From positions 1 through 63,934 of the IMG/VR virus record IMGVR_UViG_3300034954_002602: DNA of 63,934 nucleotides, one strand, 5' to 3'. Shown here piece after piece: positions 3,925 to 63,302 of this stretch (position 1 is the first letter of the stretch; each line of letters starts with the position of its first letter). The notes beneath the pieces were generated by a model, which worked only from the letters and a program-made list of their open reading frames with translations, made no database searches and was not told the origin of the DNA. Source of the DNA: a virus. The translations under genes and the position numbers were made by a program.

Positions 3925-3953
3925 ATTATATACTAGAAAGTGTATTATGTCAA
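3925..3953 (-). promoter_or_regulatory. Sigma70 consensus promoter
   Basis: Minus strand TTGACA (3953-3948), 17-base spacer, TATAAT (3930-3925): a perfect match to the consensus. Drives the gene at 3475-3846. The transcript would begin near 3918 and cross a short ATG-ATG reading frame of 25 codons before the main start. Confidence 0.85.
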
Positions 3954-5249: not shown

Positions 5250-6686
5250 ATGGAACTTGCTATATTAATGGCGGGTATTGTTTACGGCTTGATCATTGGC
5301 CTAATACCAGCCGCTGGAGCAACAACAGGTCTAATCACACTATTTGGAGTTATGCCTTACTTCGTAGGAGATCCCTACCTGGGCGTGATATTCTGTGTGG
5401 CAGTTGTCGCTTCATCAACAACCGGTGATTCATTTGCAGGTGTGCTGTTGGGCATACCGGGAGCCAATTCTGCGGCGGCAACAATGGTGGATGGTTTTCC
5501 AATGGCCAAGAACGGAGAAGCCACAAGGGCACTGAGCGCCGCGATCACATCGTCGACTTGTAATGGACTATTCTGGGGATCACTAACATTCCTTTTCTTA
5601 CCTTGGTACACCAAAGTTGTGATGTATATGGGCATACCTGAACTATGGGCGTTGGTGCTGTTGGCATTTGTCACTGTTGGATTTGTATCCACTAGGAAAT
5701 ATGTCAGGAGTGTACTCGCAATCGTGTTGGGTGTGACCATAGGACTAGTTGGTGTGGACGTGAACAACGTGCCGAGATTCACAATGGGTTGGCGTTACCT
5801 CGAAGACGGTGTACAGATTTTACCTTACATGGCAGGACTTTTCGCAATACCTGAACTGTGGGACGGATGGTTCAACAGGAAGAAGACAACAACTATAAAA
5901 GCAGAACACGGCAGTTGGAATGATCTCAAACAAGGAGTCAAGGACACAATAAGATGTTGGAAGGACAGTGTGAGGGGAGGCTTCATTGGATCTTTCATAG
6001 GACTACTGCCTGGACTGGGAGGTGCGATGGCAGATTGGTTGGCGTACGGTGCCACTGTTGCCGCAAATCCAAAAGAGAAGTTCGGTGTTGGCAACGTAAA
6101 AGGTGTTGTGGGTGCCGAGGGGGCCAACAATGCACAGAAGGCCTCATCATTCATACCAACAGTGTTGTTTGGTATACCAGGAGCAAGTTTCGCCGCGATA
6201 CTGATGGGACTATGGCTTTACATTGGAATTGATCTAGGATCTCCAGACACATTCTACGACGAAAAATTATTTGACAGTATGACATTTGCGTTCTTGCTTG
6301 GAACGATAATCACTGCTGTCTTATGTTATGGACTGGCATACTTCGCTGGTTGGGTGACACGTATTCCTTACGTTTATTATTTCCCTATCATACTTGGATT
6401 CATTGTATGGGCGAGCCTGCAATACACAGGTGGTTGGGAAGACCTAGCGGTACTATTGGCATTCTCTATATTTGGAGTGCTTTGTAAAAAATTCCAAGTC
6501 AGCAGGCCAGCACTGCTGATCGGGTACATATTGAGTGACAGGATTTACAACCTCACTTATCAACTAACATCCTTGCATACAGTAGATGATCTCATCACCA
6601 GACCGATCTTCATTGGCATAATGATTTGTGTATTTGCATTATTGTATTGGGGAATAACAAAAAGGAGTCGATTAGACTATGCTTAA
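5250..6686 (+). CDS. tctA: Tripartite tricarboxylate transporter large membrane subunit TctA
   Basis: 478 residues, close to the usual TctA length of about 500, with roughly 11-12 hydrophobic segments. Both family repeats are visible: GLIIGLIPAAGATTG near residue 14 and GSFIGLLPGLGGAMAD near 248, plus GIPGANSAAATM and GIPGASFAA, the paired GIPG loops. TctA forms the channel for citrate or other carboxylates taken up with cations, working with a periplasmic TctC and usually a small TctB. It overlaps tctC (6679-7725) by 8 bases. No TctB is present, so host TctB may be used or the system may work without one. Substrate unknown. Unusual cargo for a phage. Confidence 0.9.
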   Translation: MELAILMAGIVYGLIIGLIPAAGATTGLITLFGVMPYFVGDPYLGVIFCVAVVASSTTGDSFAGVLLGIPGANSAAATMVDGFPMAKNGEATRALSAAITSSTCNGLFWGSLTFLFLPWYTKVVMYMGIPELWALVLLAFVTVGFVSTRKYVRSVLAIVLGVTIGLVGVDVNNVPRFTMGWRYLEDGVQILPYMAGLFAIPELWDGWFNRKKTTTIKAEHGSWNDLKQGVKDTIRCWKDSVRGGFIGSFIGLLPGLGGAMADWLAYGATVAANPKEKFGVGNVKGVVGAEGANNAQKASSFIPTVLFGIPGASFAAILMGLWLYIGIDLGSPDTFYDEKLFDSMTFAFLLGTIITAVLCYGLAYFAGWVTRIPYVYYFPIILGFIVWASLQYTGGWEDLAVLLAFSIFGVLCKKFQVSRPALLIGYILSDRIYNLTYQLTSLHTVDDLITRPIFIGIMICVFALLYWGITKRSRLDYA

Positions 6687-7725
6687 GAAAACAATAATTG
6701 CCTTGTTTCTAATGACAACAACGGCGTTGGCAGATTACAACTTGATCGTGCCACAAAAACCATCTGGTGGAACTTCTGTGTGGGCACAGATAGTTGTAGC
6801 GGAATGGGAGAAACACCTAGGTGAGAAGATCAATCTTATCTACAAGCCAGGTGCGAGAGACCAACTTGGACCGAACGAGTTCCAAAACGAACTAAGGTTC
6901 GACGACAAGACAATACTTGTATCACACGGTGGTAATGGTATATCATATCTAACAGAGCCTGTTGATTACAATTATTTTGATTGGGAGTCTGTTGGACACA
7001 TGAACCTAAACATTATTGTAGGTGCTAGAAATAAAGCGGATACGACAAATGGACCGATTCAGTTTCCATCAGGATCTGGTATGACTCCAGAGATCATGGC
7101 AATCGTGATGTTACTTGCAGGACCAAACAATGATCCTGTGAAAACATTTGAAGACAAGATCATTTGGGTGAAAGGTATGAAAGGCTCTGAGAGGAGACTT
7201 GCTTTCATCAGAGGTGATCTAAATGCTACAAGGGAGAACCCTGCCGCATACAAGAAACACGTGATGCCAGTGATCAAGAAAGGCGATGCCTACACTTGGT
7301 TCCATCATGGACTACTAAACGTCAAGACGGGTGGTCATGATAAAGATCCAAACTTCACTGAACCAACTTTCGAAGAACTGTTTGAAAAGATGCACGGTGT
7401 TGCACCAAGTGGTGACTTCTATGATGCATACAAACTTGTAAAGAGTTGGAGAGATGCTCTACAGAAAGCGTTCTGGGTGAACAAGGGCAATCCTAACAAG
7501 GATAAACTCGTCGCCGCACTTGACAAGATGATCAAGGATCCTGAGTCAGTTGCCGCTATCGAGAAGAAGGTTGGCAAGTACGAGTGGAGAACAGGTGAGG
7601 AAGGTGACGCCGCAGTTAGAACACTGAAGTCATTCATCACACCAGGTGCATTAAAGACACTATCTGATTTTGGAAAGAACCAGTTGGGTTACAATGCAAT
7701 CTACAAGGAAGAGTTGACAAAGTAA
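6679..7725 (+). CDS. tctC: Tripartite tricarboxylate transporter substrate-binding protein TctC
   Basis: 348 residues with a signal peptide (KKTIIALFLMTTTALA, cut before DYNL). The mature protein begins with the NLIVPQKPSGGTSVWAQ pattern of the TctC/BugT family, where the loop after the first strand binds the carboxylate. Length is near the usual 320-330. It acts in the periplasm, passing a carboxylic acid to TctA. Translationally coupled to tctA upstream and to a sulfotransferase-like gene downstream (TAATG). A second, diverged pair lies at 36279-38456. The substrate cannot be deduced. Confidence 0.85.
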   Translation: MLKKTIIALFLMTTTALADYNLIVPQKPSGGTSVWAQIVVAEWEKHLGEKINLIYKPGARDQLGPNEFQNELRFDDKTILVSHGGNGISYLTEPVDYNYFDWESVGHMNLNIIVGARNKADTTNGPIQFPSGSGMTPEIMAIVMLLAGPNNDPVKTFEDKIIWVKGMKGSERRLAFIRGDLNATRENPAAYKKHVMPVIKKGDAYTWFHHGLLNVKTGGHDKDPNFTEPTFEELFEKMHGVAPSGDFYDAYKLVKSWRDALQKAFWVNKGNPNKDKLVAALDKMIKDPESVAAIEKKVGKYEWRTGEEGDAAVRTLKSFITPGALKTLSDFGKNQLGYNAIYKEELTK

Positions 7726-29614: not shown

Positions 29615-30892
29615 ATGACAGTAAACAAGGGATTATTATCACTAGTAGAGAACACACCAAACTTTTCAGACCAAGCATTGGAAAATGCAATCAATGAGAT
29701 CAAAGCAATAGACAAGGATGATGGACACCAATTCATTTTATCTCAATTCTTATTAGACACAGCAATACACGATAACACAGTTTTGACCACGTCACAGAAA
29801 AATGATGTGCTAGATGCAATCTACAATGCCCAGCCTCATTTGCAGATTGGACGTTATCTCAATGACGTTGTAAGACACACAAAGTCAATAATCGATGGAT
29901 CTATTATACCTGTTGACGAACTGACCAATCCAATACAAAGAACCTTTCTGGAAATTATGCAGGACGTTCTCAGCCTACAATCGTTGGTGCCAGAACTTTA
30001 CGGAGTTGCGGCTTCTGAAAAGAAAAGATCTGTGAACGATCACTTGGGCACTTTGAATAATATTTTCGTTAGCACAACCGACAGCACTGCACCTGTGTTC
30101 ACAAGGTTGAAAGAGATAATGGAATTGATTGATGCAACATCAAGGGCAAACACGGTTAGTGGTTTGAATCTCGCCATCACAAACGCGGCCGCGGGCAATT
30201 TAAACTTGCGGACTTTCCTGGCCGGTCTCGTAGCCGACTCTACGGACTTCCAGCAATCCTTAGACAATATGGTGAACCTCTGTACTAACAAGTATGCAAC
30301 CCTCAACACTCGCATATCAGAAATACCAGGAGACCCAACCACTGACTTGGTAGCAATAAGAGAGGAAATCAATACACAGGTGGCATTAGAAAACAGCAAC
30401 CTCTTGGGTATGGACACCTACGTTGAAACCCTAACAAACCAAATTGCATACACATCATTGGCCAGCGATGCTGATCTAAGATCTGTATTGGTGAACACTG
30501 CACAGGATCTAAACTGGCAGTCGTACTTCAGAGACTACGAGACCAACCAATCTAACCTCAACCCTCTTTACACTACAGACACCGACTCTGACAAGAGTGG
30601 CGTCATTGATCAGGTTCTTGCAGACAGTGGACTACCTGATGTCACAGATGCAACTGACCTAGAAGCAGTTGCTGAAAAGGCCAAACGTGACAGCAGGATT
30701 GATACTGCTAACTTTGATCGTTACACAGTGGAAACACAAATAACAAAAAGTTGTGAACAGTTGGGCATAACCACAGCCAACAGAACTATAAGTGCTCTGA
30801 GCAATAGTCTATTGAACAATATGAATAAGTTTGACAGGGATGAAATTGCTAGGAGTCTAGATCTCAACGAGGACGCAGAGACTCTAAGTTAA
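29615..30892 (+). CDS. Probable baseplate/spike-associated protein
   Basis: 425 residues, almost wholly helical, rich in Asn/Asp/Leu/Thr, with no enzyme motif and no membrane segment. It directly follows the PAAR gene (2-base gap), so both are made from the same late transcript. In marine T4-type phages a protein of unknown role often sits next to the PAAR gene. I do not recognise a domain. It ends 4 bases into the convergent gene at 30889. Confidence 0.5.
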   Translation: MTVNKGLLSLVENTPNFSDQALENAINEIKAIDKDDGHQFILSQFLLDTAIHDNTVLTTSQKNDVLDAIYNAQPHLQIGRYLNDVVRHTKSIIDGSIIPVDELTNPIQRTFLEIMQDVLSLQSLVPELYGVAASEKKRSVNDHLGTLNNIFVSTTDSTAPVFTRLKEIMELIDATSRANTVSGLNLAITNAAAGNLNLRTFLAGLVADSTDFQQSLDNMVNLCTNKYATLNTRISEIPGDPTTDLVAIREEINTQVALENSNLLGMDTYVETLTNQIAYTSLASDADLRSVLVNTAQDLNWQSYFRDYETNQSNLNPLYTTDTDSDKSGVIDQVLADSGLPDVTDATDLEAVAEKAKRDSRIDTANFDRYTVETQITKSCEQLGITTANRTISALSNSLLNNMNKFDRDEIARSLDLNEDAETLS

Positions 30893-31104
30893 GAATCTTC
30901 TTTCATTTCGTTACAACCTACTTCAATGCTTTCATAATCTTGTCCATAATAGGCAAAAACATCTGTCATTCCGTAGAAACGAGCGGCCGCATCTGACTCA
31001 CACTTGGCCAATTCTTGATATATTTTTCCTGTGCTGTCGTCATAATCGGTGCACTTCATCTCACCATTTACTAGGACACACATCACCATAAAAAGTTTGT
31101 ACAT
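30889..31104 (-). CDS. Small cysteine-containing exported-type protein, copy 1
   Basis: 71 residues from ATG 31104. Hydrophobic N-terminus (MYKLFMVMCVLVNG) then a polar body. Cys at 9, 18, 35 and 64. The last three keep the same spacing (17 and 29) as in the protein at 32231-32443, so the two are paralogues. It lies just downstream of the tmRNA on the same strand and may share its promoter. Likely membrane-attached or periplasmic; function unknown. Confidence 0.6.
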   Translation of the reverse strand: MYKLFMVMCVLVNGEMKCTDYDDSTGKIYQELAKCESDAAARFYGMTDVFAYYGQDYESIEVGCNEMKEDS

Positions 31105-31109
31105 ACAAA

Positions 31110-31398
31110 TAGTTATGGCCCGTTCTGTTGCAAGGTGGGCCAAACCCCTGAGAATATTGGTTATTACGCCGCTAATCTCAATGCAGGCATACCGACTGTT
31201 AGGTCAGCAAACCCTAATGCTCTTTTGTTTGCATTTAAAAACTGGACGTATTCCTCGTGCCTACAGGGAGTTCTCGTAAAAAGTTTCAACGTGAATCGAT
31301 CCTAATTCCACCCCTCAAGTTTCATCGCTCAAATGGTGGAGTGGCTGGGAATTGCACCCAGGTCTTCACCGCCTATTGATTTCTAGTCAACAAACTCA
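31110..31398 (-). ncRNA. ssrA: Circularly permuted (two-piece) tmRNA
   Basis: Minus strand. The acceptor piece comes first: T stem CTGGG/CCCAG (31361-31345) with loop TGCAATT, then acceptor arm CCACTCC (31344-31338) and ACCA ending at 31334. After a 19-base spacer the 5' arm GGGGTGG (31314-31308) pairs with it (7 bp, one G-U), followed by the tmRNA-like AATTAGGATCGATTCACG. The tag frame starts at GCA 31232 and reads ANKRALGFADLTVGMPALRLAA then TAA TAA (31166-31161), ending in LAA as SsrA tags do. A TGGCCC/GGGCCA hairpin (31142-31116) ends the coding piece. Order acceptor-then-coding is the permuted type of alphaproteobacteria, some cyanobacteria and some betaproteobacteria. The second loop base is G rather than the usual U. 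The exact ends are inferred. Confidence 0.88.
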
Positions 31399-31404
31399 AA
31401 TATA

Positions 31405-31433
31405 ATTATACCCTAAGGTTGACTGTTTGTCAA
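31405..31433 (-). promoter_or_regulatory. Consensus sigma70 promoter of the tmRNA
   Basis: Minus strand TTGACA (31433-31428), exactly 17 bases, TATAAT (31410-31405), predicted start near 31398. A perfect match, as expected for a highly expressed stable RNA. It overlaps the divergent promoter at 31419-31447. Confidence 0.9.
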
Positions 31434-31447
31434 TTCTGTGCTAAATT
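31419..31447 (+). promoter_or_regulatory. Sigma70 promoter giving a leaderless mRNA
   Basis: TTGACT (31419-31424), 17-base spacer, TAAATT (31442-31447); ATG at 31455 is seven bases further. It interlaces with the tmRNA promoter. Confidence 0.6.
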
Positions 31448-31454
31448 AGTTTAT

Positions 31455-31658
31455 ATGCCAAAAAATAGAATATTCAAAATCACAGACGGAACAGAGACAA
31501 AGGAAGTTGAAGCACTCTCTTTCAAGAAGGCCGTGAAATCATTTCAGGGCAGTTCTAAAGCGAAGATGATAACTATCGAGTGGATGACGAAGGGTGGAGA
31601 ACTTTTCGTCAAAGATCAACCGATACCACTAGGTAGAAAGAAAAAGATAGGACGTTAG
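31455..31658 (+). CDS. 67-residue basic protein
   Basis: Starts MPKNRIFKITDGTETKEVEA and ends in GRKKKIGR; predicted beta-beta-alpha-beta, very basic. The ATG at 31455 is chosen because the promoter's -10 ends seven bases upstream. Divergent from the tmRNA with a shared promoter region, so it may be expressed early. Not recognised. Confidence 0.6.
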   Translation: MPKNRIFKITDGTETKEVEALSFKKAVKSFQGSSKAKMITIEWMTKGGELFVKDQPIPLGRKKKIGR

Positions 31659-36278: not shown

Positions 36279-37133
36279 ATGAGAACTATTTTAATATCAT
36301 TTATTACGTTTATTTGTATGTTGGCACACACTGCCAGTGCATACGATCTGGTGCTGAATGCACCATTCAGTAAGGCCGGTAGTGGTCAATTGACGATGAG
36401 GACACTTGCAAAAGGTTTAGAGGCGAAAGGATACAACTTTGATATAGTCATCACATCAAATGCAAAATTATCTAAACAAAACTACGCTGACGAAAACAAG
36501 CCATTACTTTTAGGTTGGGAAGCGCCTGCATCAAGCAAGGGGGCACCTTTGTATATGGGACCACCAACAGACAAGGATCTAGTTGCAATAGTTGTGACGA
36601 TGGGACATTTCATCTGCACAAAGAAAGACATTTCGATTGAAGATGTTTTCAATGGAAAAAAAGAACTGACTATTGCCCATGATGTTGCCTTTGGTAATTG
36701 GGTACAAGAGTTGGCAGATCACACTGGTGCCAAATTGAAGTTGATTCCATACAAAGGATCAAAAAAGGTTGAAAATGCTTTGGTATCAGGCGAGGTTGAC
36801 CTAGCAATGAGCACCAAGGGAGCAGGTTGGCAAAAGAAAGGTTTGGCTAACTGCTTATTAACATCTGGAACAGATAGTGTATTAGGTATCCAGACTGTGA
36901 ATAGTCTGTATCCTGATTGGAATGATAACACTCTGGTCTTGACTTTTTACATAAAATCTAAGAATATCCCACAAGATAAATTAGATCAATTAAGAAAAGA
37001 CATTGAGGAAGTGAAAAGGACGTCTGAGGAATTCGCGGCTTTGGTTGAGAAAAAATCGTGGACACCTGTCGTGGACAAAAGCATAGACGAACAACTATCA
37101 CTACTTCAAGCGATAGACAAGTCTATCAAATAG
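36279..37133 (+). CDS. TctC-type substrate-binding protein, second copy
   Basis: 284 residues. Signal peptide (MRTILISFITFICMLAHTASA, cut before YDLV). The mature protein follows the TctC fold: LVLNAPFSKAGSGQLTMRTL, a GWEAPASSKGAPLYMG loop, LKLIPYKGSKKVENALVSGEVDLAMS (the usual 'vpYkG...al.GevD' segment). Shorter than the copy at 6679 and clearly diverged. A periplasmic binder for a carboxylate or other small acid. Own promoter and AAAGGAG site; followed after 24 bases by the membrane subunit. Confidence 0.75.
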   Translation: MRTILISFITFICMLAHTASAYDLVLNAPFSKAGSGQLTMRTLAKGLEAKGYNFDIVITSNAKLSKQNYADENKPLLLGWEAPASSKGAPLYMGPPTDKDLVAIVVTMGHFICTKKDISIEDVFNGKKELTIAHDVAFGNWVQELADHTGAKLKLIPYKGSKKVENALVSGEVDLAMSTKGAGWQKKGLANCLLTSGTDSVLGIQTVNSLYPDWNDNTLVLTFYIKSKNIPQDKLDQLRKDIEEVKRTSEEFAALVEKKSWTPVVDKSIDEQLSLLQAIDKSIK

Positions 37134-37157
37134 TCACTCCTTGGCGACAAGAATGGT

Positions 37158-38456
37158 ATGCTAGACATATTTTTATTGTTGTCGTCTCCTTTCATAGGAA
37201 TCCTCGTTGGGTTCCTACCGGCGATGGGTGCATTCTTCACTTTGCTGTTGATGTACCCGTTGCTGATAGACATGGATCCTTTGTTGTTGATCCTATTTTA
37301 TTCAATCCTCATAAGTGCAAGAGACTTCAGCGGAAGCGTCAGTGCCTTGAATTTTGGAATACTGGGCGAGGTAACCAGCCTCCCGGTGTTGCAGGAGAGG
37401 AAAAAGATCATAGACAATCACAAACAAAAGGAAGCACTGCGAAACACAATGATAGGCAGTGTGTTCGGAATGGCAATGGGGTTGGCTTTCCTCTTACTGA
37501 TATTGGCAGGAATAGGTGACTACAGTGTGTTGTTACGAACAGATGTAATGGCAGTCTTGATTTGCCTTACTATAGTGTTCCTGGTGTTTTGGGACAAGAA
37601 CAAATGGTACATGAACCTTGTCATCGGGGCGTGTGGGTACCTCGTTGCTATGGTAGGGTTCGATCCATACATACAAAAAGAATACTTTACATTTGGCAAC
37701 GTATACCTGTCGGGTGGTGTTCCAACGATGCCTTTGCTCCTTGGACTTTACGGAGTGCCTGCTATGTTTGCCATTATAAGGCACACCAAACTTCAAAAAC
37801 CAAAGCCAATACACGACCAGGCCATGTCCAGGGTTCGTTTGCCTATCCTATTCAGGTCCAGCGTGATTGGTTCCTTGTGTGGATTCGTACCTTACATAGG
37901 TAGTGTGTTGAGCAGTAACATTGCCTATATGTTCGAGAAAAAAATAACAACAAACAATGTGAAGTCCGCACTAGACAGAATAGTGGCATCGGAAACAGCC
38001 AATAACGCCAGCCAGGTGACTGTGTTGATTCCATTCATCCTAATAGGAATCGCATTACAACCTTCCGAACTTTTAGTTTTAGATATGATAGAAAACAAAG
38101 GCTGGGAGATTAATTTTGAATCAGCGAAGCAAACTACTTTCTATCTTATAATAGCATTACCTATTGGATGTCTTGTATCTGCATTCTTGTGTTACAATAT
38201 GATCAGCCGGGTGTTGCATTTTTTCCAGTTGCATCATAAAAAAATTGTCTACTCTCTGTTGGCAATCATCATAGCAAATATTTTCTATCTTGGTTATGAC
38301 TCAAACCAGTCACTGTACTATATGCTGGTGTTCGCCACTGCGTTGCCAATTGGCTTTTATCTCAGAAAGCACTTTGATCTGATGCCTTTTATTATGTGTT
38401 TTTTGCTACAAAATCAGTTCCAAGAGACACTTATCAGGCTTCCCATACTGTATTAG
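37158..38456 (+). CDS. TctA-type membrane protein, second copy
   Basis: 432 residues, about 10-11 hydrophobic segments. FIGILVGFLPAMGAFFTLLL and later SVIGSLCGFVPYIGSVLSSNIAY keep the two G-x3-G-x2-P loops of TctA; LLLGLYGVPAM and SETANNASQVTVLIPFILIG match the family's internal landmarks. It is about 50 residues shorter than usual and diverged in the PG(L)xG signature (LPAMG, VPYIG). Works with the preceding binding protein; no TctB. Substrate probably differs from the first system. Confidence 0.75.
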   Translation: MLDIFLLLSSPFIGILVGFLPAMGAFFTLLLMYPLLIDMDPLLLILFYSILISARDFSGSVSALNFGILGEVTSLPVLQERKKIIDNHKQKEALRNTMIGSVFGMAMGLAFLLLILAGIGDYSVLLRTDVMAVLICLTIVFLVFWDKNKWYMNLVIGACGYLVAMVGFDPYIQKEYFTFGNVYLSGGVPTMPLLLGLYGVPAMFAIIRHTKLQKPKPIHDQAMSRVRLPILFRSSVIGSLCGFVPYIGSVLSSNIAYMFEKKITTNNVKSALDRIVASETANNASQVTVLIPFILIGIALQPSELLVLDMIENKGWEINFESAKQTTFYLIIALPIGCLVSAFLCYNMISRVLHFFQLHHKKIVYSLLAIIIANIFYLGYDSNQSLYYMLVFATALPIGFYLRKHFDLMPFIMCFLLQNQFQETLIRLPILY

Positions 38457-38977: not shown

Positions 38978-39622
38978 ATGGTGAAAAAATACGTAAAAAG
39001 ATTTATCTATTTCTGTATATGTGTAGGCTTCGTTATTGTGGCCACATATATCGCAGGCACATTCCATCCTAATGATTACACAGTTCAGAAGATCGAAGAC
39101 GAGATTCACAGGAAGGAAATGAAGGTAGTGGAAGAACTTGGTTTGAAAGAACCAGAGTTTGAATTCACTGATAAAGTTTCTTTCATTAATGCTACCGCCA
39201 AATGTATTGCCTATCTCAACTGGACCACAGACAGAGATAAGAGAGTGCCCACTAGCATTATTATTGCAATGGCGGGTATAGAAAGTGCCTGGGGCAAGAG
39301 CAGATTCGCAAAAGAAGGTAATGCACTATTTGGTGTGAGGACCTGGGATCTCAAAGGCACACCACATATGAAAGCACTTGGCAATCCAGATGCAGAATGG
39401 GGTGTCAAAAAATACAACACAAAATGCCAATCTGTGAAAGATATGATAAGGATTTTAAACACGCACCCTGCATATGAGAAGTTCCGAGACTTCAGAGAAC
39501 AACAGATAGACGCAGGCGAATGGAACTACAGTCAACTATTATCCGGTATGACTGCCTGGAGCACCAATCCAGATTACCAAAAAATAATACTTTCTACCAT
39601 AGTTGACAATAAATTACCCTAA
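38978..39622 (+). CDS. Membrane-anchored glucosaminidase (Bax/FlgJ-like)
   Basis: 214 residues. One N-terminal membrane span (FIYFCICVGFVIVATYIAG, residues 8-27), then a lysozyme-like domain: PTSIIIAMAGIESAWGKSRFAKEGNALFGVR with catalytic Glu in GIESAWG and the N-x-L-F-G-x-R signature of the N-acetylglucosaminidase family (Bax, FlgJ C-domain). MTAWSTNPDYQKII near the end is the family's last motif. It would cut cell-wall glycan from the periplasmic face, in lysis or entry. Preceded by the inverted repeat and no clear promoter. Confidence 0.8.
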   Translation: MVKKYVKRFIYFCICVGFVIVATYIAGTFHPNDYTVQKIEDEIHRKEMKVVEELGLKEPEFEFTDKVSFINATAKCIAYLNWTTDRDKRVPTSIIIAMAGIESAWGKSRFAKEGNALFGVRTWDLKGTPHMKALGNPDAEWGVKKYNTKCQSVKDMIRILNTHPAYEKFRDFREQQIDAGEWNYSQLLSGMTAWSTNPDYQKIILSTIVDNKLP

Positions 39623-39631
39623 TAGTATAAT
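39603..39631 (+). promoter_or_regulatory. Sigma70 promoter giving a leaderless mRNA
   Basis: TTGACA (39603-39608), 17-base spacer, TATAAT (39626-39631), all in or at the end of the preceding gene; ATG at 39637 five bases later. Confidence 0.8.
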
Positions 39632-45477: not shown

Positions 45478-46065
45478 ATGGCAAAAGGTGATAAGCACGT
45501 AGGTGCACAAGACGTACAAGGAAACAAAGAGCAAAAATCAGAAATTGCAGTCACAGGTGCAAAATTGGATCTAAGGAAAAAGAACGGAACCATAACATTA
45601 GTGACGCCTCCGAGTTTCTTTCAAAACCAAAACAGAAGTTTCTGTTTGATTAATCTTAGCAAAAAAGACAAAGATAATTTTGCTGACCAAATAAACAAAT
45701 ACTTTCCAAAGGACGACCTAACAATTTATCTGTGGGATGATAACAACTTTTCTGCACTGGATCCTTTTGGAGGCGATGATCCTGAATACGAGAGATATCT
45801 CGAGAACTGGAAACCAAACGCCAAGGGCAGAGACTACACTTGGTTGTTGAATGCCTGCAGGGCGGCAACCACTGTAATATTGAATATGGACTACAGTTCT
45901 AATCAAATGAAAGTATGGTCAGGTTACATTCTCACAATGGCCAAGACTTGGTTCCTAAACTCCAATGTAGATGATTCAGCATCGTTTGGTGTACTAAACA
46001 GAAACAAGATCAACGGAATGCACGAGTTGTTTCCAAAGATCCAAAAACTCAAAGATAATCAGTAA
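45478..46065 (+). CDS. Phage protein of unknown function
   Basis: 195 residues. Polar N-terminus (MAKGDKHVGAQDVQGNKE), then a mixed alpha/beta body (NRSFCLINLSKKDKDNFADQ, LTIYLWDDNNF). Coupled to the membrane protein upstream and clpX downstream (stop and ATG share a base). Not recognised. Confidence 0.5.
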   Translation: MAKGDKHVGAQDVQGNKEQKSEIAVTGAKLDLRKKNGTITLVTPPSFFQNQNRSFCLINLSKKDKDNFADQINKYFPKDDLTIYLWDDNNFSALDPFGGDDPEYERYLENWKPNAKGRDYTWLLNACRAATTVILNMDYSSNQMKVWSGYILTMAKTWFLNSNVDDSASFGVLNRNKINGMHELFPKIQKLKDNQ

Positions 46066-47309
46066 TGTCCGAAGAGACATTGGTATGCTCGTTCTGTAGC
46101 AAGAGTCGTAAAGACGTCACCAAGATGATCGTTGGTGCAAAGAAAACATCAATTTGCAATGAGTGTGTTAAATTGTGTGTTGAGATCCTAGAAGAAGATG
46201 TGATCAAAGCACGTAAGGAGAAACTGTACGCAGGTGACAAAAACATACTCAATCCTGTGGCAATCAAAGAACACCTTGATCAATATGTGATAGGCCAAGA
46301 TCAAGCAAAGACTATCCTTAGTGTTGCAGTGGCGAACCATTACAAACGAATTGTTCAGCCACCTATTGACTTCGAACTAGACAAGTCAAACGTGATGGTG
46401 CTTGGTGCCACTGGTGCAGGTAAAACACTAATGGCGAGGACAATCGCGAAATACTTGGACGTTCCATTTGCGATAGCAGACGCAACCACATTGACAGAAT
46501 CAGGATATGTTGGTGAGGATGTTGAGAACGTGGTGCAGAAACTGTATGCCAATGCAGAAGGTGACATTGAGAAAACTGAAAAAGGAATAATATTCATAGA
46601 CGAGATTGACAAGATCTGCCGTAAAGGAGAGAACACATCTCTCACCAGAGACGTGTCGGGCGAGGGTGTGCAACAAGGGTTACTGAAGATAGTAGAGGGC
46701 ACGGAGTGTAGGGTGCCTCCACATGGCGGACGAAAGCATCCAGATCAGCAGACTGTGACAATAGACACAAAGAACATATTGTTTATAGTTGGAGGTGCGT
46801 TCACAGAATTAGAGAAACAAATAAGATCAAAGAAATCTGGAGGGATAGGCTTTGGCACACAACTGAGAGAACAGGATGAGAAGAATTATCTCAGTGAAGT
46901 AAAACCAGAAGATCTAATCAAATATGGACTTATACCAGAATTTGTTGGAAGGTTCTCAATGATCACAAACATAGATCCTTTGAATGAAGCACAGTTGATC
47001 AGAATATTGACAGAACCTCGTAACGCCATATTGAAACAGGTACACTACCTGTTTGGACTGGACAACATAGAAATTGAATTTACCAAAGAAGCCAAGCAGA
47101 GCATAGCCAAGAAAGCAAAAGCACTGGGCACCAACGCAAGGGGACTTAAAAACGTAGTAGATACTGTGGTTCTTCCCTATCAATTTGACGCTGAGGAGAT
47201 GAGAAGCAAGGGAGTTGGCAAGATACAGATAACTAATGCGGTGGTTGACAATGAAGCAGACCCTGTGTTAGTATTTAAAAAAGATGGATCAACAAAGAAA
47301 CAAATTTAA
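46065..47309 (+). CDS. clpX: ATP-dependent unfoldase ClpX
   Basis: 414 residues, full length. Zinc-binding domain C8/C11/C31/C34; Walker A GATGAGKT (114-121); pore-1 loop GYVG (147-150); Walker B IIFIDE (175-180); RKH loop (223-225), which helps read the LAA tail of ssrA-tagged proteins; sensor and arginine-finger region near 300. All key residues are intact. ClpX feeds proteins to ClpP, which is not encoded here, so host ClpP would be used. A 26-base overlap with the bS21 gene downstream. Probably of alphaproteobacterial origin. Confidence 0.97.
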
Positions 47310-47577
47310 ATCAAAATTTAGAAAAAACAATAGACCCTTAGGTTTCCAAGGTTATTATGTTGAAGTGCGTGAGGGTGAAGATGCCGTCAGAGCATACAGG
47401 AAGATCAAGAGATGGATCAAAGAGGACAAGTTCATTGATCAGATAAGAGCCAACAATACATACACAAAGCCATCCGCTATCAAAAGAGAAAAGCAGAAAG
47501 AACGTAGGAGAATCCTACGTAAATTGCAACGTGAACGAGATAGCAACATCTTTCTTGGCGTAAAACGAGGCAGATAA
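47284..47577 (+). CDS. rpsU: Ribosomal protein bS21-like
   Basis: 97 residues, about 25 longer than most bS21 at the N-terminus. YYVEVREGEDAVRAYRKIKRW then YTKPSAIKREKQKERRRILR matches the bS21 pattern (V-x-V-x-E...A-x-R-x-F-K-R... Y-x-K-P-S-x-x-R-x-R-K). bS21 sits on the 30S platform near the anti-Shine-Dalgarno end. A phage copy could bias translation initiation to phage mRNAs. Overlaps clpX by 26 bases. bS21 is the ribosomal protein most often reported in phages. Confidence 0.85.
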   Translation: MDQQRNKFKSKFRKNNRPLGFQGYYVEVREGEDAVRAYRKIKRWIKEDKFIDQIRANNTYTKPSAIKREKQKERRRILRKLQRERDSNIFLGVKRGR

Positions 47578-47632: not shown

Positions 47633-47699
47633 CAGTTGAAGATTGCTATAGATAGGATCTTCACAACATTAACTCGCTTAACAATAGGAGGAAAGCAAA

Positions 47700-48139
47700 T
47701 GACAAAACATCTATCTATTTTTAATAACCTAAGACCATACACAGTAGGATTTGACGACTGGTTCGATCACTTCGAAACAATGATGGACGACAGTTTCTTC
47801 AGAGGAACTAGCAACTTCCCACCATACAACATAGTGAAGACTGGTGACAACACCTACGATGTTGAACTTGCTCTTGCAGGTTTCAACAAAGACGACATCG
47901 AAGTAGAATATAAAGAGAATCTACTTACAGTCAAATCCAAGAAACAGGAAGAGACTAAAGACGAGGATGGTAATGTGATACAACACAGAGGCATTTCAAA
48001 GAGAATGTTTTCTAAATCATTTACCATTGCCAACGATGTAGAAGTCAAGGGTGCAGAACTCAAGGACGGCCTATTAAAAGTGTCAATGGAGAGAATAATC
48101 CCAGAACACAAGAAGGCTAAACTTATCGACATCAAGTAA
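47700..48139 (+). CDS. Small heat-shock protein Hsp20 family
   Basis: 146 residues from ATG 47700, taken for its AGGAGG site 6-7 bases upstream. Alpha-crystallin domain at about residues 40-135: YDVELALAGFNKDDIEVEYKENLLTVKS, DGNVIQHRGISKRMFSKSFTIANDVEV, ELKDGLLKVSMER (the A-x-x-x-D/N-G-x-L motif). It keeps unfolding proteins from aggregating; hsp20 genes are usual in T4-type marine phages. Sits between ClpX/bS21 and ClpS, a proteostasis block. Confidence 0.93.
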
Positions 48140-48212: not shown

Positions 48213-48515
48213 ATGACAATGGCAGATATACAAACACTTACAAAAGAAAAAATTAAACTAGATGAACCTGGAATGTACGATGTGATATTCCTTAACGACA
48301 ACATCACCACTATGGAGTTCGTTGTTAAAGTTCTAAAACAGATATTCAACAAGACTCCTGAGCAGGCACAGAACATCACTATGAGGATACACCAGGACGG
48401 ACAGGGTATCGTGGGATCTTACACACACGAAGTTGCCGAGCAGAAGGGTATAGAAGCGACACTGGCCGCTAGGCAAGAGAACTTCCCACTCCAGATCAAA
48501 GTCAAGAAACAGTGA
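48213..48515 (+). CDS. clpS: ClpS adaptor
   Basis: 100 residues. MYDVIFLNDNITTMEFVVKVL (residues 21-41) is the ClpS N-degron pocket region (usual D/N-x-x-T-x-x-F-V), followed by FNKTPEQAQNITMRIHQDGQGIVGSY with the conserved His60. ClpS normally hands N-end-rule substrates to ClpA and inhibits ssrA substrate uptake by ClpA, so with the phage ClpX it could steer tagged proteins to ClpXP. No ClpA here. A second Met at 48219 may be the start. Coupled to the next gene (GTGA). Confidence 0.9.
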   Translation: MTMADIQTLTKEKIKLDEPGMYDVIFLNDNITTMEFVVKVLKQIFNKTPEQAQNITMRIHQDGQGIVGSYTHEVAEQKGIEATLAARQENFPLQIKVKKQ

Positions 48516-50350: not shown

Positions 50351-50536
50351 ATGATCAAGGAAGCATTGATTAAGAAACTGGAAGGCGAGATAGAGGTAGC
50401 AAAAACAGACCTTAGAACTTTCCTAGCAAATCCGATCGGCGTGGCAGAACACATCGATTACGTGATTACTGCTGAGAAAAAGTTAGAAGCACTCGCTCAC
50501 GCAGAAGATAAACTTGAATCGCTGAACAAGTTATAA
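50351..50536 (+). CDS. Small helical protein of unknown function
   Basis: 61 residues. Almost wholly helical with heptads ([35 protein letters not shown]). Own promoter with AAGGAG; its stop overlaps the ferredoxin ATG by one base. Could be a small carrier or dimer partner; not recognised. Confidence 0.5.
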
Positions 50537-50862
50537 TGACATACACTGTCAATGACAAGTGTATTATGTGTAAGCACACTGACTGTGTGGAGGTGTGTCC
50601 TGTTGACTGTTTCTACGAAGGCGAAAATATGCTTGTCATCAACCCAGATGAATGTATAGACTGTGGCGTGTGTGAACCGGAGTGTCCTGAGGATGCAATA
50701 TTGCCAGACACAGACGACAACGGCAGAGGGTGGGTGGACTTCAATAGGAAATGGTCGACTTCGGGTTGGCCTGTACTGACCAGTAAGAAAGATTCTTTAG
50801 ATCCTGATGGAAAGCACAAGAACGAAGATAACAAACTAGAAAAATATTTTAAAGATAAATGA
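50536..50862 (+). CDS. fdxA: 7Fe/8Fe ferredoxin FdxA
   Basis: 108 residues. C9-x2-C12-x4-C17-x3-C21P and C40-x2-C43-x2-C46-x3-C50P are the two cluster sites; an extended C-terminal region ([18 protein letters not shown]) matches FdxA of alphaproteobacteria, usually with one 3Fe-4S and one 4Fe-4S. A low-potential electron carrier that could reduce radical-SAM clusters. Its stop overlaps the next ATG. Confidence 0.9.
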
Positions 50863-51047
50863 TGAAGAAAAAGAAAAAATCGAAATGGCAAGCCAGGCGT
50901 GAGCAGGAGGCCAGCCAGAATTCACAGTTCGATCCAAAGATACACGATCTTGGACGGGCGGGATTTGGATTCCAAATGAAAAAAGACTATAAAAGTAAAC
51001 CTGAAGAACTGTCAGGCAAGAACCTACCATTCTCAAAAGACAAATGA
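50859..51047 (+). CDS. 62-residue basic protein
   Basis: [20 protein letters not shown]..., strongly basic N-terminus then [20 protein letters not shown]. Coupled between ferredoxin and SufE (ATGA overlaps at both ends). Not recognised. It could be an RNA-binding or targeting peptide for the neighbours. Confidence 0.5.
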
Positions 51048-51454
51048 TACTAGATAAAATTAAAGAGATGGGCGAAAACCTCAAGATGTTGGAAGGCCAC
51101 GACAGGTTGCATTACCTCATTGACAAGGCCAAAGAAATAGAGCCACTTCCTGAAGCCGCCAAGATAGAAGACAACAGGATACGTGGTTGTGCCTCTAAAC
51201 TTTGGATCATAGGCGGCACGACTGAAAACGGCACAATGCAATACAGAGTCGATGGAGATGCACACATCAGTAAGGGCACTGCGAAGGTTGTGACAGATCT
51301 GGTCAATGGCGAACACAGGAGTGCTGTGGCAAACCTCACAGTAGAGGATTTTACACCATTGGGCATAAAAGAATTATTAACAATGCAGAGACAGAATGGA
51401 CTGGGTGAGTTGATTGATAGGATAATAAGGATCGCCCATAGAGATGAAAATTGA
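51044..51454 (+). CDS. sufE: SufE sulfur-transfer protein
   Basis: 136 residues. RIRGCASKLWI near residues 47-57 carries the SufE active Cys (motif V/I-x-G-C-x-S-x-V/L-W), LEGHDRLHYLIDKAKEIEPLP is the usual N-terminus. SufE accepts persulfide from SufS and passes it to SufB, the scaffold for Fe-S clusters. Neither SufS nor SufB is in the window, so it would boost the host Suf pathway. Overlaps its neighbours on both sides. Confidence 0.92.
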   Translation: MILDKIKEMGENLKMLEGHDRLHYLIDKAKEIEPLPEAAKIEDNRIRGCASKLWIIGGTTENGTMQYRVDGDAHISKGTAKVVTDLVNGEHRSAVANLTVEDFTPLGIKELLTMQRQNGLGELIDRIIRIAHRDEN

Positions 51455-52040
51455 TATAGAAGTAAATGCAACTCATTGTAATACCTGGCCCACTCTGGTA
51501 TTGGAAATCAACAATAACAAAATATTTTCTGATCTAGTCAAAGATAGGCAGAAAATCAGTTTAGAATACACGGATCTCAAACAACAAGGAAACAAATTCG
51601 TAATCGGAATGATTAGAAAAAGTTTTGGCCTCGCTGATATATGGGATACCGTTTACAAAAACAACATCGTAGTACAAGACAAGAAGATAGAAATCCTAAG
51701 TTTAAAATTAGATGATGTTGAATGCAAAGATTTATTAGGGAGCCGTTTCTACGTTCAACGGACAGGTAAGCAACCAAGTTATTTTCCGGACGTTGTGGAG
51801 TCAACTGGCGTGATGAACTACAATGGATATTTTACTTTTGACTTCGATCTGCCTTTGTACAATTCTATAATCAACAAGAAATACAAACAACAAGAAAACA
51901 AGGATCTCAGTTACTTCAGTAATTACACCAAGGTGTTTCATTACGACGACGAAATAAAAGTAATAAACGAAATCAACAGTATATTGAAAGAAGTGGATGA
52001 AAAATTTAGTCATAAGCGTTCCAAGATTAGAAATTCATAG
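51444..52040 (+). CDS. Protein of unknown function, beta-rich
   Basis: 198 residues. MKIDIEVNATHCNTWPTLVL..., strands with the pattern LEYTDLKQQGNKFVIGM and IVVQDKKIEILSLKLDDVE, then FTFDFDLPLYNSIINKKY. Overlaps SufE (11 bases) and the B12-type radical-SAM gene (44 bases). The two-layer beta pattern recalls carbohydrate-binding modules of phage unknowns, which is a weak guess. Confidence 0.45.
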   Translation: MKIDIEVNATHCNTWPTLVLEINNNKIFSDLVKDRQKISLEYTDLKQQGNKFVIGMIRKSFGLADIWDTVYKNNIVVQDKKIEILSLKLDDVECKDLLGSRFYVQRTGKQPSYFPDVVESTGVMNYNGYFTFDFDLPLYNSIINKKYKQQENKDLSYFSNYTKVFHYDDEIKVINEINSILKEVDEKFSHKRSKIRNS

Positions 52041-53520
52041 ACCGCCTATCAGTACAGCGATAGTTGCCGAAGTGATAAGGACCACTGGTGCTCCAGTACA
52101 GGCACTTGACTTGAATTGTGAATTCTATCATTTTTTGCCTGACAGGCAGGCATACTACAGTTGGGATGAAATTTGGGACCAAGTACGGAACCCAACCTTT
52201 ACGGAACTAAAAAACTTATTTAGATTCATCAAGCAGAGCCTTGAAAAAATGAAATCTTATGATAGATATTGGATCAGTGTTTTTGGTTCGTCGGGGCATA
52301 TCTTTTCAAAACTGCTCTGCAAGTTTATTCGGAAACATCTGCCAAATAAGATAGTGATACTAGGAGGACAGGGAGCCGCCGCGAAGGATCTACATTCAAA
52401 GGACGTGGGATTTGGTAATGTCCTCAGGAAGCAAGGACTATGTGATATGTATCTCACAGGCGAGGGAGAAGAAGTCATTAAACAAGTGCTGGCAGGAAAC
52501 ACTGACGGTCCAGGCATAAACAATGAGGATCCTGTGCAGATCGACGACATAAATGATCTTCCATTCCCGAACTACAGTTTCTACGATCTAGATCGCTATG
52601 ACTACCTTGACAAGAAAGAAGTGTTCATAGTCGGTAGCAGAGGATGTGTGAGACGATGCACGTACTGTGACGTCGCCAAGTATTGGCCCAAGTTCAGATA
52701 CAGGTCCGGTGAGAACATAGCATCTGAGATGATCAATCATTACGAGAAACACGGAGTCACAAAGTTCTACTTCACTGACAGTCTGATCAATGGCAGTATG
52801 AAAGCGTTCAATGATATGTGTGATAGGCTTGCCAAATACAACACAGACCACAAGGCAGGCTTCACGTGGAAGGGACAGTTCATATTCAGACCCAAAAATC
52901 AACTGCCCCAGGATCACTTCGCCACCGTGGCCGCGGCGGGTGGTAAGGAGTTCTACGTAGGTGTTGAAACGGGCAGTGATAAAATCAGATGGGAGATGGA
53001 CAAGAAGTTTACCAACGAAGACATAGACTTCCAACTAGAGGAGTTCAGCAAGTACAATATAAATGTGATATTCCTTATGTTGATTGGTTACGTTACCGAA
53101 ACACTAGATGATCACAAGGACACTCTCAAGATGTTCAAGCGTTGGCAGAAGTATGTGGCCACAGGCACGATCAAAGGCATCGATCTTGCCACTGGATTGC
53201 TGTTCCTGTCTGACACGCCTTTGCAACGTCAGATAGATCAACACGGAGTCTATTTCTTGAATGCCGAAGGAAACGAACCAGGAAAGCCTTACACAGGATT
53301 GTGGCAGGCCAAGACCAATCCTGATCTAGATGTACCAGAGAGGATACGTAGGAGGATGGAGACGCACATGGAGGCCATCAAGTACAACTGGCCCATATGG
53401 AGAGGCGAGCAAAGGCTCAATCACATCAAGCATATGACACAGAAGTATTTGGATTACCTTAAAGGACAATCTGACAATTTGGTAAAAATAAAGATAGGCA
53501 ACCTGAACTTCTTTGAATAG
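51997..53520 (+). CDS. B12-binding-type radical SAM protein
   Basis: 507 residues. N-terminal Rossmann-like domain (residues about 1-170) as in B12-binding radical-SAM proteins, with IVILGGQGAAAKD and LTGEGEEVIKQVL, the usual end of that domain; the DxHxxG cobalamin ligand is not evident. The radical-SAM site is CVRRCTYC (Cys217/221/224). Class B-like methyltransferases or ring-forming enzymes share this layout. Its 5' end overlaps the previous gene by 44 bases. Between SufE and SufT-like genes, so Fe-S delivery to it is plausible. Substrate unknown. Confidence 0.8.
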   Translation: MKNLVISVPRLEIHRPPISTAIVAEVIRTTGAPVQALDLNCEFYHFLPDRQAYYSWDEIWDQVRNPTFTELKNLFRFIKQSLEKMKSYDRYWISVFGSSGHIFSKLLCKFIRKHLPNKIVILGGQGAAAKDLHSKDVGFGNVLRKQGLCDMYLTGEGEEVIKQVLAGNTDGPGINNEDPVQIDDINDLPFPNYSFYDLDRYDYLDKKEVFIVGSRGCVRRCTYCDVAKYWPKFRYRSGENIASEMINHYEKHGVTKFYFTDSLINGSMKAFNDMCDRLAKYNTDHKAGFTWKGQFIFRPKNQLPQDHFATVAAAGGKEFYVGVETGSDKIRWEMDKKFTNEDIDFQLEEFSKYNINVIFLMLIGYVTETLDDHKDTLKMFKRWQKYVATGTIKGIDLATGLLFLSDTPLQRQIDQHGVYFLNAEGNEPGKPYTGLWQAKTNPDLDVPERIRRRMETHMEAIKYNWPIWRGEQRLNHIKHMTQKYLDYLKGQSDNLVKIKIGNLNFFE

Positions 53521-53549
53521 TTGACCGACAATGTTAGTCGTGTTATAAT
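53521..53549 (+). promoter_or_regulatory. Sigma70 promoter giving a leaderless mRNA
   Basis: TTGACC (53521-53526), 17-base spacer, TGTTATAAT (TATAAT 53544-53549); ATG at 53556 six bases later. Confidence 0.8.
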
Positions 53550-53555
53550 AGTGAC

Positions 53556-53954
53556 ATGATTGATATGCCACCTGGATGGACTCCACAACAAAATCCTTCT
53601 GTCGATCCCCAACTGAAAACTGACCTTAGCGATATACAAGAACATCCACCAACTCAGCAGGAATACATCTCTAAAATTGTAGAAAAATTGAAAACCTGCT
53701 ACGATCCTGAAATCAGTGTTGACATATACAATCTTGGTCTAGTTTACGACATCAAGGTGACAGAGGACGGTTGGGTACACGTGTTGATGAGTCTCACGAG
53801 TGCTTTCTGTCCTGCCGCTGATATGATACCAAGGGACGTGCAACAGGCCATTGAAAGCATTCCAAATCTAAAATGTAAAGTAAAGATCACAATGCAACCA
53901 CAGTGGGGTCGTGACATGATCAATCCAGAAGTAAGAGGTCTGATGGGACTATGA
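53556..53954 (+). CDS. SufT/MIP18-family Fe-S assembly protein
   Basis: 132 residues. YDPEISVDIYNLGLVYDIKV and MSLTSAFCPAADMIPRDVQQAI are the DUF59/MIP18 landmarks (D-P-E-h-x-h-x-I/V-x-x-L-G-L-h; T-x-x-x-C-P). SufT helps mature Fe-S proteins after the scaffold stage. The C-terminal half has VKITMQPQWGRDMI. Starts a separate leaderless unit; its stop overlaps the BtuB-like start (ATGA). Confidence 0.88.
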   Translation: MIDMPPGWTPQQNPSVDPQLKTDLSDIQEHPPTQQEYISKIVEKLKTCYDPEISVDIYNLGLVYDIKVTEDGWVHVLMSLTSAFCPAADMIPRDVQQAIESIPNLKCKVKITMQPQWGRDMINPEVRGLMGL

Positions 53955-61271: not shown

Positions 61272-61326
61272 GTGTTTATTTTAAGTCCTTTGAAATAGTA
61301 GCACATATCCGGTATTTGGTAATTTC

Positions 61327-61334
61327 GATAAATA
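61327..61334 (+). promoter_or_regulatory. T4-type late promoter variant
   Basis: GATAAATA, 11 bases before the ATG of csgF; lies within a GGTATTT...AAATACC inverted repeat. Confidence 0.45.
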
Positions 61335-61345
61335 CCCATATACGT

Positions 61346-61801
61346 ATGTTTAGAAAATTAATTTTCATAATGATCCTGGGTGTGACCGCACAGGCCTCAG
61401 AATTGACGCACGAGTTCAAAAACCCGTCATTCTCTGGCAATGGCTACAGCACCCACGTTCTTTCAATCGAGCAACTGCGATACAGCAGGAAGAACGATGT
61501 GAGGGATGAGCAGAGAAGGCTGGAATCACAGGCCAAGAGGGACGAAGAGAACACCACAATCAACAAATTCATCAAGAACGTGGAGTCAAGGATCTACGCA
61601 AACCTATCAAAACAACTTGTTGACAATATGTTCGGAGAGAGTTGCTCAGGCGAGTGTCCCACAAGCGGTACTGCTGAAGTGGAAGGCGACACGATCTACT
61701 GGGTAAAAGACACAACAACAGAAACGATTACACTGACAGTTACGGGACAGGATGGAACTGTGACAACAATGACTATACCAATGGGAGATTTCAATTTCTA
61801 A
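61346..61801 (+). CDS. csgF: Curli assembly protein CsgF-like
   Basis: 151 residues from ATG 61346. Signal peptide MFRKLIFIMILGVTAQA. HEFKNPSFSGNGYSTHVLSI is the CsgF N-terminal signature (F-x-N-P-x-F-G-G-N...) which inserts into the CsgG pore. The C-terminal ETITLTVTGQDGTVTTMTIP fits the CsgF end. CsgF caps and couples the CsgG channel to curli nucleation at the outer surface. Overlaps csgG by one base. Confidence 0.85.
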   Translation: MFRKLIFIMILGVTAQASELTHEFKNPSFSGNGYSTHVLSIEQLRYSRKNDVRDEQRRLESQAKRDEENTTINKFIKNVESRIYANLSKQLVDNMFGESCSGECPTSGTAEVEGDTIYWVKDTTTETITLTVTGQDGTVTTMTIPMGDFNF

Positions 61802-62601
61802 TGATTAAACTTCTTGCCATAATTGCCCTAGTGTGTGGACTTGGTGGATGTGCGAAACATCACAACAAGGTGGAGATAGGACAGCAACCGTTCATAGAAG
61901 GCACTAGTACGAGGCATATGTTAGAAGCGATTCCGGCATTGGCCGACCAACCCAAGATCACTATAGCGGTGTACAATTTCCCTGATCTCACAGGACAGCG
62001 TAAACCCAGCACCAAGTTCTCACAACTGTCTATGGCAGTGTCACAGGGTGCTGATACCTGGGTGATAGCGGCCCTTAAAGCGGTGGGCAAGGGCACTTGG
62101 TTCAAAGTGGTGGAGAGAAAAGGGTTAGACAGTTTAATAAAAGAGAGACAATTGATAAGAAGCACCAGAGAGATGTATGACGGCAAACAGGAGGTGGGCA
62201 ACGTGATCAAACCACTCGTGTTCGCTGGATTGCTGATCGAGGGCGGCATAGTTGGATATGATGCCAACGTGGCCTCAGGTGGAGATGGTGCTAGATATTT
62301 CGGAATTGGCGTAAACGAAGAATACAGGATTGACCAGGTTACTGTAAGTATGCGCCTAGTTGCTGTACAAACGGGAGAAGTCCTGCTTACAGCAGAAGCA
62401 ACAAAAACGATTGCCAGCCACAAGACTGGCGCTGATGTGTTCAGATTTTTGGATATGAGCACCATGGCGTTTGAAGTGGAATCTGGTGTGGCGTCGAATG
62501 AACCAGTTAATTACGCAGTTAGGACAGCAATAGAGTTTTGTTTGCTAGAAATCTTAAAACTGGGTGATAAAGATGGCCTCTGGAAGATTAAATACTACTA
62601 A
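61801..62601 (+). CDS. csgG: Curli secretion channel CsgG-like lipoprotein
   Basis: 266 residues. Lipobox LGGC (Cys at residue 17). TIAVYNFPDLTGQRKPS then FSQLSMAVSQGADTWVIAAL, WFKVVERKGLDSLIKERQLI and TVSMRLVAVQTGEVLLTAEA are the CsgG landmarks. It forms a nonameric outer-membrane pore for secretion of curli subunits. Complete length. Its presence with CsgF and a curlin-like substrate suggests a working secretion route, or a pore used for another purpose such as lysis or release. Confidence 0.9.
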   Translation: MIKLLAIIALVCGLGGCAKHHNKVEIGQQPFIEGTSTRHMLEAIPALADQPKITIAVYNFPDLTGQRKPSTKFSQLSMAVSQGADTWVIAALKAVGKGTWFKVVERKGLDSLIKERQLIRSTREMYDGKQEVGNVIKPLVFAGLLIEGGIVGYDANVASGGDGARYFGIGVNEEYRIDQVTVSMRLVAVQTGEVLLTAEATKTIASHKTGADVFRFLDMSTMAFEVESGVASNEPVNYAVRTAIEFCLLEILKLGDKDGLWKIKYY

Positions 62602-62615
62602 TAAGGAAACGAGGA

Positions 62616-63302
62616 ATGAAGCGACTATTAACAACATTACTATTATCAGCAGGTTTAGCCTTTGCGGCTCAAGCCAATGATATCTATGTTACACAGTCAG
62701 GAGCCGACCTTGATTTGGACATCACACAGGATGGACAAAACAACCAGGTAGGTAACTCCACTACTGCGTCATCTGTTATCGGTGCTAGTGCAACGATCGA
62801 CATTGACCAAGTGGGTAACTCCAACGTGTTGAAGTTTGATGTTAACGGAGCAAACTACACTGGAACGTTCAACGTGACGGGTAACTCCAACGACATTGAC
62901 ATCCTTTGTGACAGCACAGGAAACAACAGTTCTTGTGGAACTGTAACTGCGTCGATCACAATGGTTGGTAACTCAAATGACATAGATCTAGACATTGGTG
63001 AGACGTCAGATGCGTCTAACACCACTGCAACTATTACGTCAGCGGGATCAGAAGATTCCAACGTGATAGCGGCAACGATAGATGGTAAAAGTGCTATCTT
63101 GACAATCACAGTTGATGGTGACACCAACAACTGGTTGCTTGACATAGACGGCGACGGAGATATCAACGGACACACTTATATACACACTCACACAGGTGGT
63201 ATAGCAGACGTGGACGTGGTACAATCTGGAGTCTATGACAACATGGTGACTTTAACCACATCAGGTGATAATCACGACATCGACATCAGCCAAACTGACT
63301 AA
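62616..63302 (+). CDS. Curlin-like repeat protein (CsgA/B type)
   Basis: 228 residues. Signal peptide (KRLLTTLLLSAGLAFAAQA). Repeats in which ITQDGQNNQVGN, IDQVGNSNVLKF, VTGNSNDIDI, ITMVGNSNDIDLDI and ISQTD recur, about every 22-35 residues, the Q/N-G-N spaced pattern of curlin strand-turn-strand units. Fewer and less regular repeats than E. coli CsgA, more Asp and Thr, and two Cys near residues 88 and 95. Probably the secreted substrate of CsgG; it may form amyloid at the cell surface. Its stop overlaps the next ATG. Confidence 0.75.
   Translation: MKRLLTTLLLSAGLAFAAQANDIYVTQSGADLDLDITQDGQNNQVGNSTTASSVIGASATIDIDQVGNSNVLKFDVNGANYTGTFNVTGNSNDIDILCDSTGNNSSCGTVTASITMVGNSNDIDLDIGETSDASNTTATITSAGSEDSNVIAATIDGKSAILTITVDGDTNNWLLDIDGDGDINGHTYIHTHTGGIADVDVVQSGVYDNMVTLTTSGDNHDIDISQTD

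Follow-up and report, generated by a model that had tools for sequence, protein, structure and literature searches.

Does the phage-type genome studied here carry a working tmRNA, and which ClpX would read the tag that this RNA encodes? The genome, that of a marine virus of bacteria, is the 63,934-nucleotide virus record IMGVR_UViG_3300034954_002602 of IMG/VR, which was analysed over its whole length and is called the window below. A preliminary description, made from the sequence alone, had reported a permuted tmRNA with a tag ending in LAA and a clpX gene in this genome, and had proposed that the phage may tag truncated proteins for its own ClpX working on host ClpP.

Structure and conservation of the tmRNA gene

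The minus strand of the window from 31437 to 31114 is a permuted tmRNA gene, as recognized by ARAGORN and two Rfam covariance models. ARAGORN called a permuted tmRNA on this strand with the tag ANKRALGFADLTVGMPALRLAA followed by two stops. The covariance search, which the preliminary description had proposed as a check, placed the locus above the cut-off of both models, with 78.7 bits (E 1.2e-19; cut-off 50 bits) for RF01849 (alpha_tmRNA) at 31437-31114 and 85.4 bits (cut-off 47 bits) for RF04321 (tmRNA_permuted) at 31397-31199. Together with the covarying helices described below, the ARAGORN call and the Rfam scores rule out chance or artefact as the source of the tmRNA.

The gene begins with the acceptor piece (31334..31397, minus strand), which is supported by the two Rfam models and by covarying pairs in 32 sequences and consists of a P2 strand, the T arm (31361-31345, loop UGCAAUU), the acceptor 3' strand (31344-31338) and the ACCA end (31337-31334). 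A 19-nt spacer (31315..31333), which is variable among the relatives and is predicted to be removed, lies between the CCA and G1. The coding piece (31114..31314) then carries the acceptor 5' strand (31314-31308), the D-loop motif UUAGGAUCGA, the PK1 region, the tag frame and a 3' hairpin, and terminates with the RF01849 match at 31114. The CCA end at 31334 is thus encoded ahead of G1 at 31314 on the minus strand, consistent with the acceptor-first order and the predicted mature ends given in the preliminary description. The acceptor stem forms seven of seven pairs, including G3.U70, and the T arm five of five. The tag frame (31161..31232) extends from an alanine resume codon, GCA, through 31232-31167 to the stops TAATAA at 31166-31161 and ends as a Clp degron (ANKR...LRLAA); the previously noted 22-codon frame with its RLAA end and two stops is the one that ARAGORN found. 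The hairpin GGCCC-ACCUUGCAACAGAAC-GGGCC (31117..31141), which was aligned by RF01849 and shows compensatory changes in its stem, is the conserved end of alpha-type tmRNA.

The folding of the RNA is conserved. Compensatory double changes occur at 28 predicted pairs in an alignment of 32 sequences, all of which keep the alanine-identity pair G3.U70. The preliminary description had regarded the G in the T loop as unusual, but it is the alphaproteobacterial norm: every SAR11 tmRNA that was read has G at position 55, as do most of the phage group. Within the phage family G55 is accompanied by a D-loop A and U55 by a D-loop G in 31 of the 32 sequences; one U55 sequence in this count was judged by eye, and the remaining sequence (L209) is ambiguous. 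Since G55 is common in these groups and its D-loop partner changes with it, we consider G55 to be ordinary and compensated. The T loop (31356-31350) and the D-loop region (31307-31296) of the window show this tertiary covariation of two-piece tmRNAs. The alignment also suggests that tag-family phages may have exchanged whole tRNA-like domains while the tag was retained. It is very likely that the tmRNA of the window works in the phage.

A sigma-70 type promoter precedes the gene (31405..31433, minus strand); as described previously, it is an exact TTGACA-17-TATAAT, and the TTGAC of its -35 box is invariant across 34 aligned sequences. Two other exact sites lie at 3925-3953 (minus) and 39603-39631 (plus). 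Three such sites in 64 kb, where 0.03 were expected, are far above chance, which suggests a putative class of promoters for host sigma-70. Directly 3' of the tmRNA, the sequence and the family alignment give a 71-aa ORF (30889..31104, minus strand) with a hydrophobic start, and a similar frame is visible in many relatives; it is possibly co-transcribed with the tmRNA. On the opposite strand, a 79-aa ORF (31419..31658) adjoins the promoter, and it adjoins the tmRNA in most loci of the tag family and also in sister phages with 29-residue tags.

Distribution and selection of the tag peptide

A search for the tag pattern matched 38 IMG/VR contigs (a shorter pattern matched 39) and, among 84,980 cellular species, only two contigs; the loci with this tag type number 40. 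Both cellular matches are phage, which rules out the tag as a mimic of a host tag. L187 and L188 lie in phage contigs that binning had placed in MAGs: the contig of the former has 46,675 bases, as has the IMG/VR contig 2823573081_000014, and that of the latter encodes NrdA and NrdB 92-93% identical to those of the window. Note that phage contigs contaminating MAGs can mislead tmRNA surveys; a Rickettsiales MAG (MED657, G121) has three permuted tmRNAs, two of them with tags of the phage lineage. As the tag was not found in bacterial chromosomes, phage tagging and host tagging should be separable by mass spectrometry. None of the proteins of the window has a C-terminus resembling the tag, and the tmRNAs of the window and one relative gave no blastn match among isolate phages.

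The tag has 22 residues, except in two records in which it has 25 (ANKRALGFADLTLLLPSKTELRLAA), and its C-terminus is always LRLAA or MRLAA. Over all tag codons pS is 0.22 and pN 0.069; pN falls to 0.011 in the core (codons 5-13) and to 0 in the last four codons, where RLAA is invariant. In codons 5-13, seven of nine third positions vary, whereas of the 18 first or second positions only one does (Fisher P = 0.0003, a value that ignores shared ancestry). Because the variation is mostly silent, the tag peptide itself is, as judged from these codons, under selection at the protein level. The 25-residue versions and the fixed ends also make the tag look bipartite: a linker that varies separates a constant core from a constant RLAA end, and the residue before RLAA is L or M.

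These patterns bear on two explanations in which the tag would have little or no part. In the first, the main role of the phage tmRNA would be to drive host tmRNA off SmpB and so to alter host quality control. The exact promoter is a strong one, as such a competitor might have, and there is a precedent in phage DS6A, whose tag-less tmRNA inhibits the endogenous tmRNA (PMC11915505). However, a pure competitor would need neither the tag frame nor the degron end, both of which are under selection, and we consider this explanation improbable. In the second, the locus is cargo or an integration-site remnant of host ssrA that is now functionless. Although ssrA is a common integration site (discussed in PMC9004378), the gene is complete and under purifying selection, with covarying helices and a conserved promoter of its own, and its position next to the 79-aa ORF is fixed in two sister lineages, so that a remnant is hardly credible.

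ClpX and the probable fate of tagged proteins

Pfam searches confirmed the earlier placement of clpX at 46065 with genes for bS21, Hsp20 and ClpS alongside. On the plus strand, ORF195 (U195; 195 aa, 45478..46065) lies just upstream of a full-length clpX (46065..47309; Pfam, PDB ClpX E 2.3e-127, and an alignment of 16 phage ClpX sequences), in a conserved order U195-ClpX-bS21, and is followed by the genes for bS21 (47284..47577; PF01165, 34.7 bits), Hsp20 (47636..48139; PF00011, 61.3 bits) and the adaptor ClpS (48213..48515; PF02617, 97.5 bits). Elsewhere in the window are iron-sulfur genes (50536-53954; ferredoxin, SufE, a radical SAM protein and an FeS-assembly domain protein) and two TctA-type tricarboxylate transporter genes (5250-7725 and 36279-38456), each adjoining a likely solute-binding protein.

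The ClpX is intact: it has the C4 zinc finger, Walker A and B motifs, the AAA+ core, the GYVG pore-1, TRDV pore-2 and RKH loops, and the ClpP-binding IGF loop, which is kept in the window and 15 relatives with I or M varying at its first position. The residues of Escherichia coli ClpX that are critical for ssrA binding are Y153, V154, T199, V202, R228 and H230 (PMC7652416), and all six are identical in the window and the 15 relatives. The proposal that the tag is made for ClpX is partly supported: it keeps its LAA-tag permuted tmRNA and gains a ClpX with the six contact residues. The oddity of the T loop, and any novelty of a permuted tmRNA in such a phage, were not supported.

ClpX was present in 13 of the 38 tag records. 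All 11 records with a determined direction that reach at least 20 kb to the clpX side have it (12 of 12 if L199 is included, which has ClpX and whose direction was not determined), as does one further record with clpX at 12.7 kb. The tag records without ClpX extend at most 17.6 kb, save L204, whose direction was not determined. The linkage is therefore lineage-wide: clpX was found in the window and in every one of the 13 tag records that contain its place or extend to it, with no counterexample. In 15 of 15 relatives clpX occupies the same slot between ORF195 and bS21 (ORF195 was not detected in one), and Hsp20 and ClpS come after bS21 wherever the contig extends. Sister phages with 29-residue tags ending in FALAA have the same gene order minus ClpX, so clpX was either gained in the RLAA-tag lineage or lost in the sister. 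The association of tag and clpX is suggestive, but not statistically independent, because it reflects one event in many descendants. Even so, the full co-occurrence in informative relatives and the lineage-specific insertion of clpX strengthen the link between them.

Partners of the tmRNA were also sought, SmpB being one that the preliminary description had suggested for a search. PF01668 (SmpB) was absent from 37 phage records, all of them fragments, and a trans-translation system wholly encoded by the phage was thus not found. SspB was likewise absent from the searched phage records, all fragments, and among these ClpP occurred in one only, the distant member L223 (G117), as a full-length frame at 1112-1717 on the minus strand; at least one tag-family phage may therefore carry the protease itself. 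As no phage SmpB was found, the phage would need that of the host. Judging from the gene content, SmpB must come from the host, and so must ClpP in most members, unless the two are encoded in the unsequenced parts.

With a probability of roughly 0.6, we favour the interpretation that the window encodes a functional alphaproteobacterial-type permuted tmRNA that relies on the SmpB and ClpP of the host, with the tagged fragments passing to ClpXP that contains either host or phage ClpX. The transcript, once expressed, would be cut by host tRNA enzymes into the acceptor and coding pieces; these would be joined by base pairing in the acceptor stem and P2, and host alanyl-tRNA synthetase would charge the RNA through G3.U70. 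During infection the tmRNA, together with host SmpB, would free ribosomes that have stalled on broken mRNAs and append alanine and the 22-residue tag, the C-terminal LRLAA of which would serve as a ClpX degron and direct the fragments to ClpXP. The reader would be host ClpX, or phage ClpX docked on host ClpP, and phage ClpS would reduce the share of ssrA-tagged substrates that goes to ClpAP. That the products of the phage tmRNA go to ClpXP is likely; a dedicated link between the tag and the phage's own ClpX is plausible. Several points count against this interpretation: the phage records, all fragments, gave no SmpB and only one ClpP; host ClpX could read the phage tag, so that phage ClpX is not required; the linkage of tag and clpX goes back to one gain and not to repeated independent events; and about 14.6 kb separates the tmRNA from clpX, which do not share an operon.

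A further point against it is that ClpX has other uses in phages, as with lambda O and the Mu transpososome. The tmRNA might only supplement host rescue while the host genome is destroyed, with host ClpX reading the tag and phage ClpX serving elsewhere, for example in remodelling a replication or virion complex. The relatives that have no clpX retain the tmRNA at the same locus, the Pelagibacter phages HTVC008M and Mosig have a tmRNA and are not among the ClpX matches listed, and of seven known ClpX phages tested six have no permuted tmRNA and one has it. This explanation, which we regard as possible but rather unlikely, leaves unexplained why the long RLAA tag, which is conserved at the protein level and absent from the bacterial chromosomes searched, is confined to the ClpX lineage. 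As a lead towards a general association of tmRNA with ClpX among phages, an alpha tmRNA scored over the cut-off in 24 of 50 ClpX-bearing IMG/VR records, a proportion without a size-matched control, but in only one of the seven known ClpX phages tested.

A stronger version of the favoured interpretation has the bipartite tag (an ANxK/R-ALGFADLT core, a variable linker and the LRLAA degron) co-evolving with a captured ClpX; phage ClpX would then read the tag well, and host ClpAP or SspB would do so poorly. ClpS lowers the affinity of ClpAP for ssrA-tagged proteins (PMC8138137), which would fit such a private degradation route, although we hold the route to be doubtful. If true, the phage would control the fate of every fragment that its tmRNA tags. 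The linked phage ClpX makes the tag preference measurable in vitro; as a GFP fusion, the tag is written GFP-AANKRALGFADLTVGMPALRLAA. If phage ClpX does prefer the tag, a virus would have altered the protein quality control of bacteria at two points, the label and its reader.

Comparison with known systems

Permuted tmRNAs are already known from phages of this kind. One has been published for Melnitz, a T4-like marine phage of OM43, and its relatives: tmRNA was reported in 402 of 18,146 phages, including 53 with the two-piece form, and in 17 of the 47 contigs that resemble Melnitz (PMC9004378). Melnitz and the window share a permuted alpha-type tmRNA, curli genes and NrdAB, while ClpX, ClpP and ClpS are unmentioned in the Melnitz paper (PMC9004378). 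The curli-type genes of the window (61316-63302; CsgF, CsgG and a curlin-repeat protein) are as in pelagimyophages. A glutamine riboswitch was reported in the 3' domain of the Melnitz tmRNA (PMC9004378); the window tmRNA had no Rfam match to one up to E 1.

HTVC008M and Mosig, the nearest isolates by NrdB (65%), both have permuted tmRNAs with short tags (ANFNEYALAA and GEDNFALAA, respectively). The ssrA of SAR11 (Pelagibacteraceae) resembles that of the window in gene order and in the G55 T loop with a D-loop A, but its tags, read in 30 of 147 genomes searched, have nine residues (for example, ANDKFALAA and ANESYALAA) compared with 22 in the phage. A second lengthened tag occurs in the sister lineage (L004, L012 and L037), whose tmRNA occupies the same locus, again next to the 79-aa ORF, and encodes tags of 29 residues (ANDNAL...NEDFALAA). 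The Sinorhizobium jumbo phages Phosso and AP-J-162 (PMC11242549 for the latter) have tmRNA and ClpX in one genome, like the window; however, they are unrelated 470-kb phages in which ClpX adjoins IF-3 and shares 49% identity, and the tag of Phosso was read as ANDNVSTKVALAA. As far as the literature found shows, the combination of a private, selected long tag with a lineage-wide ClpX companion appears to be new.
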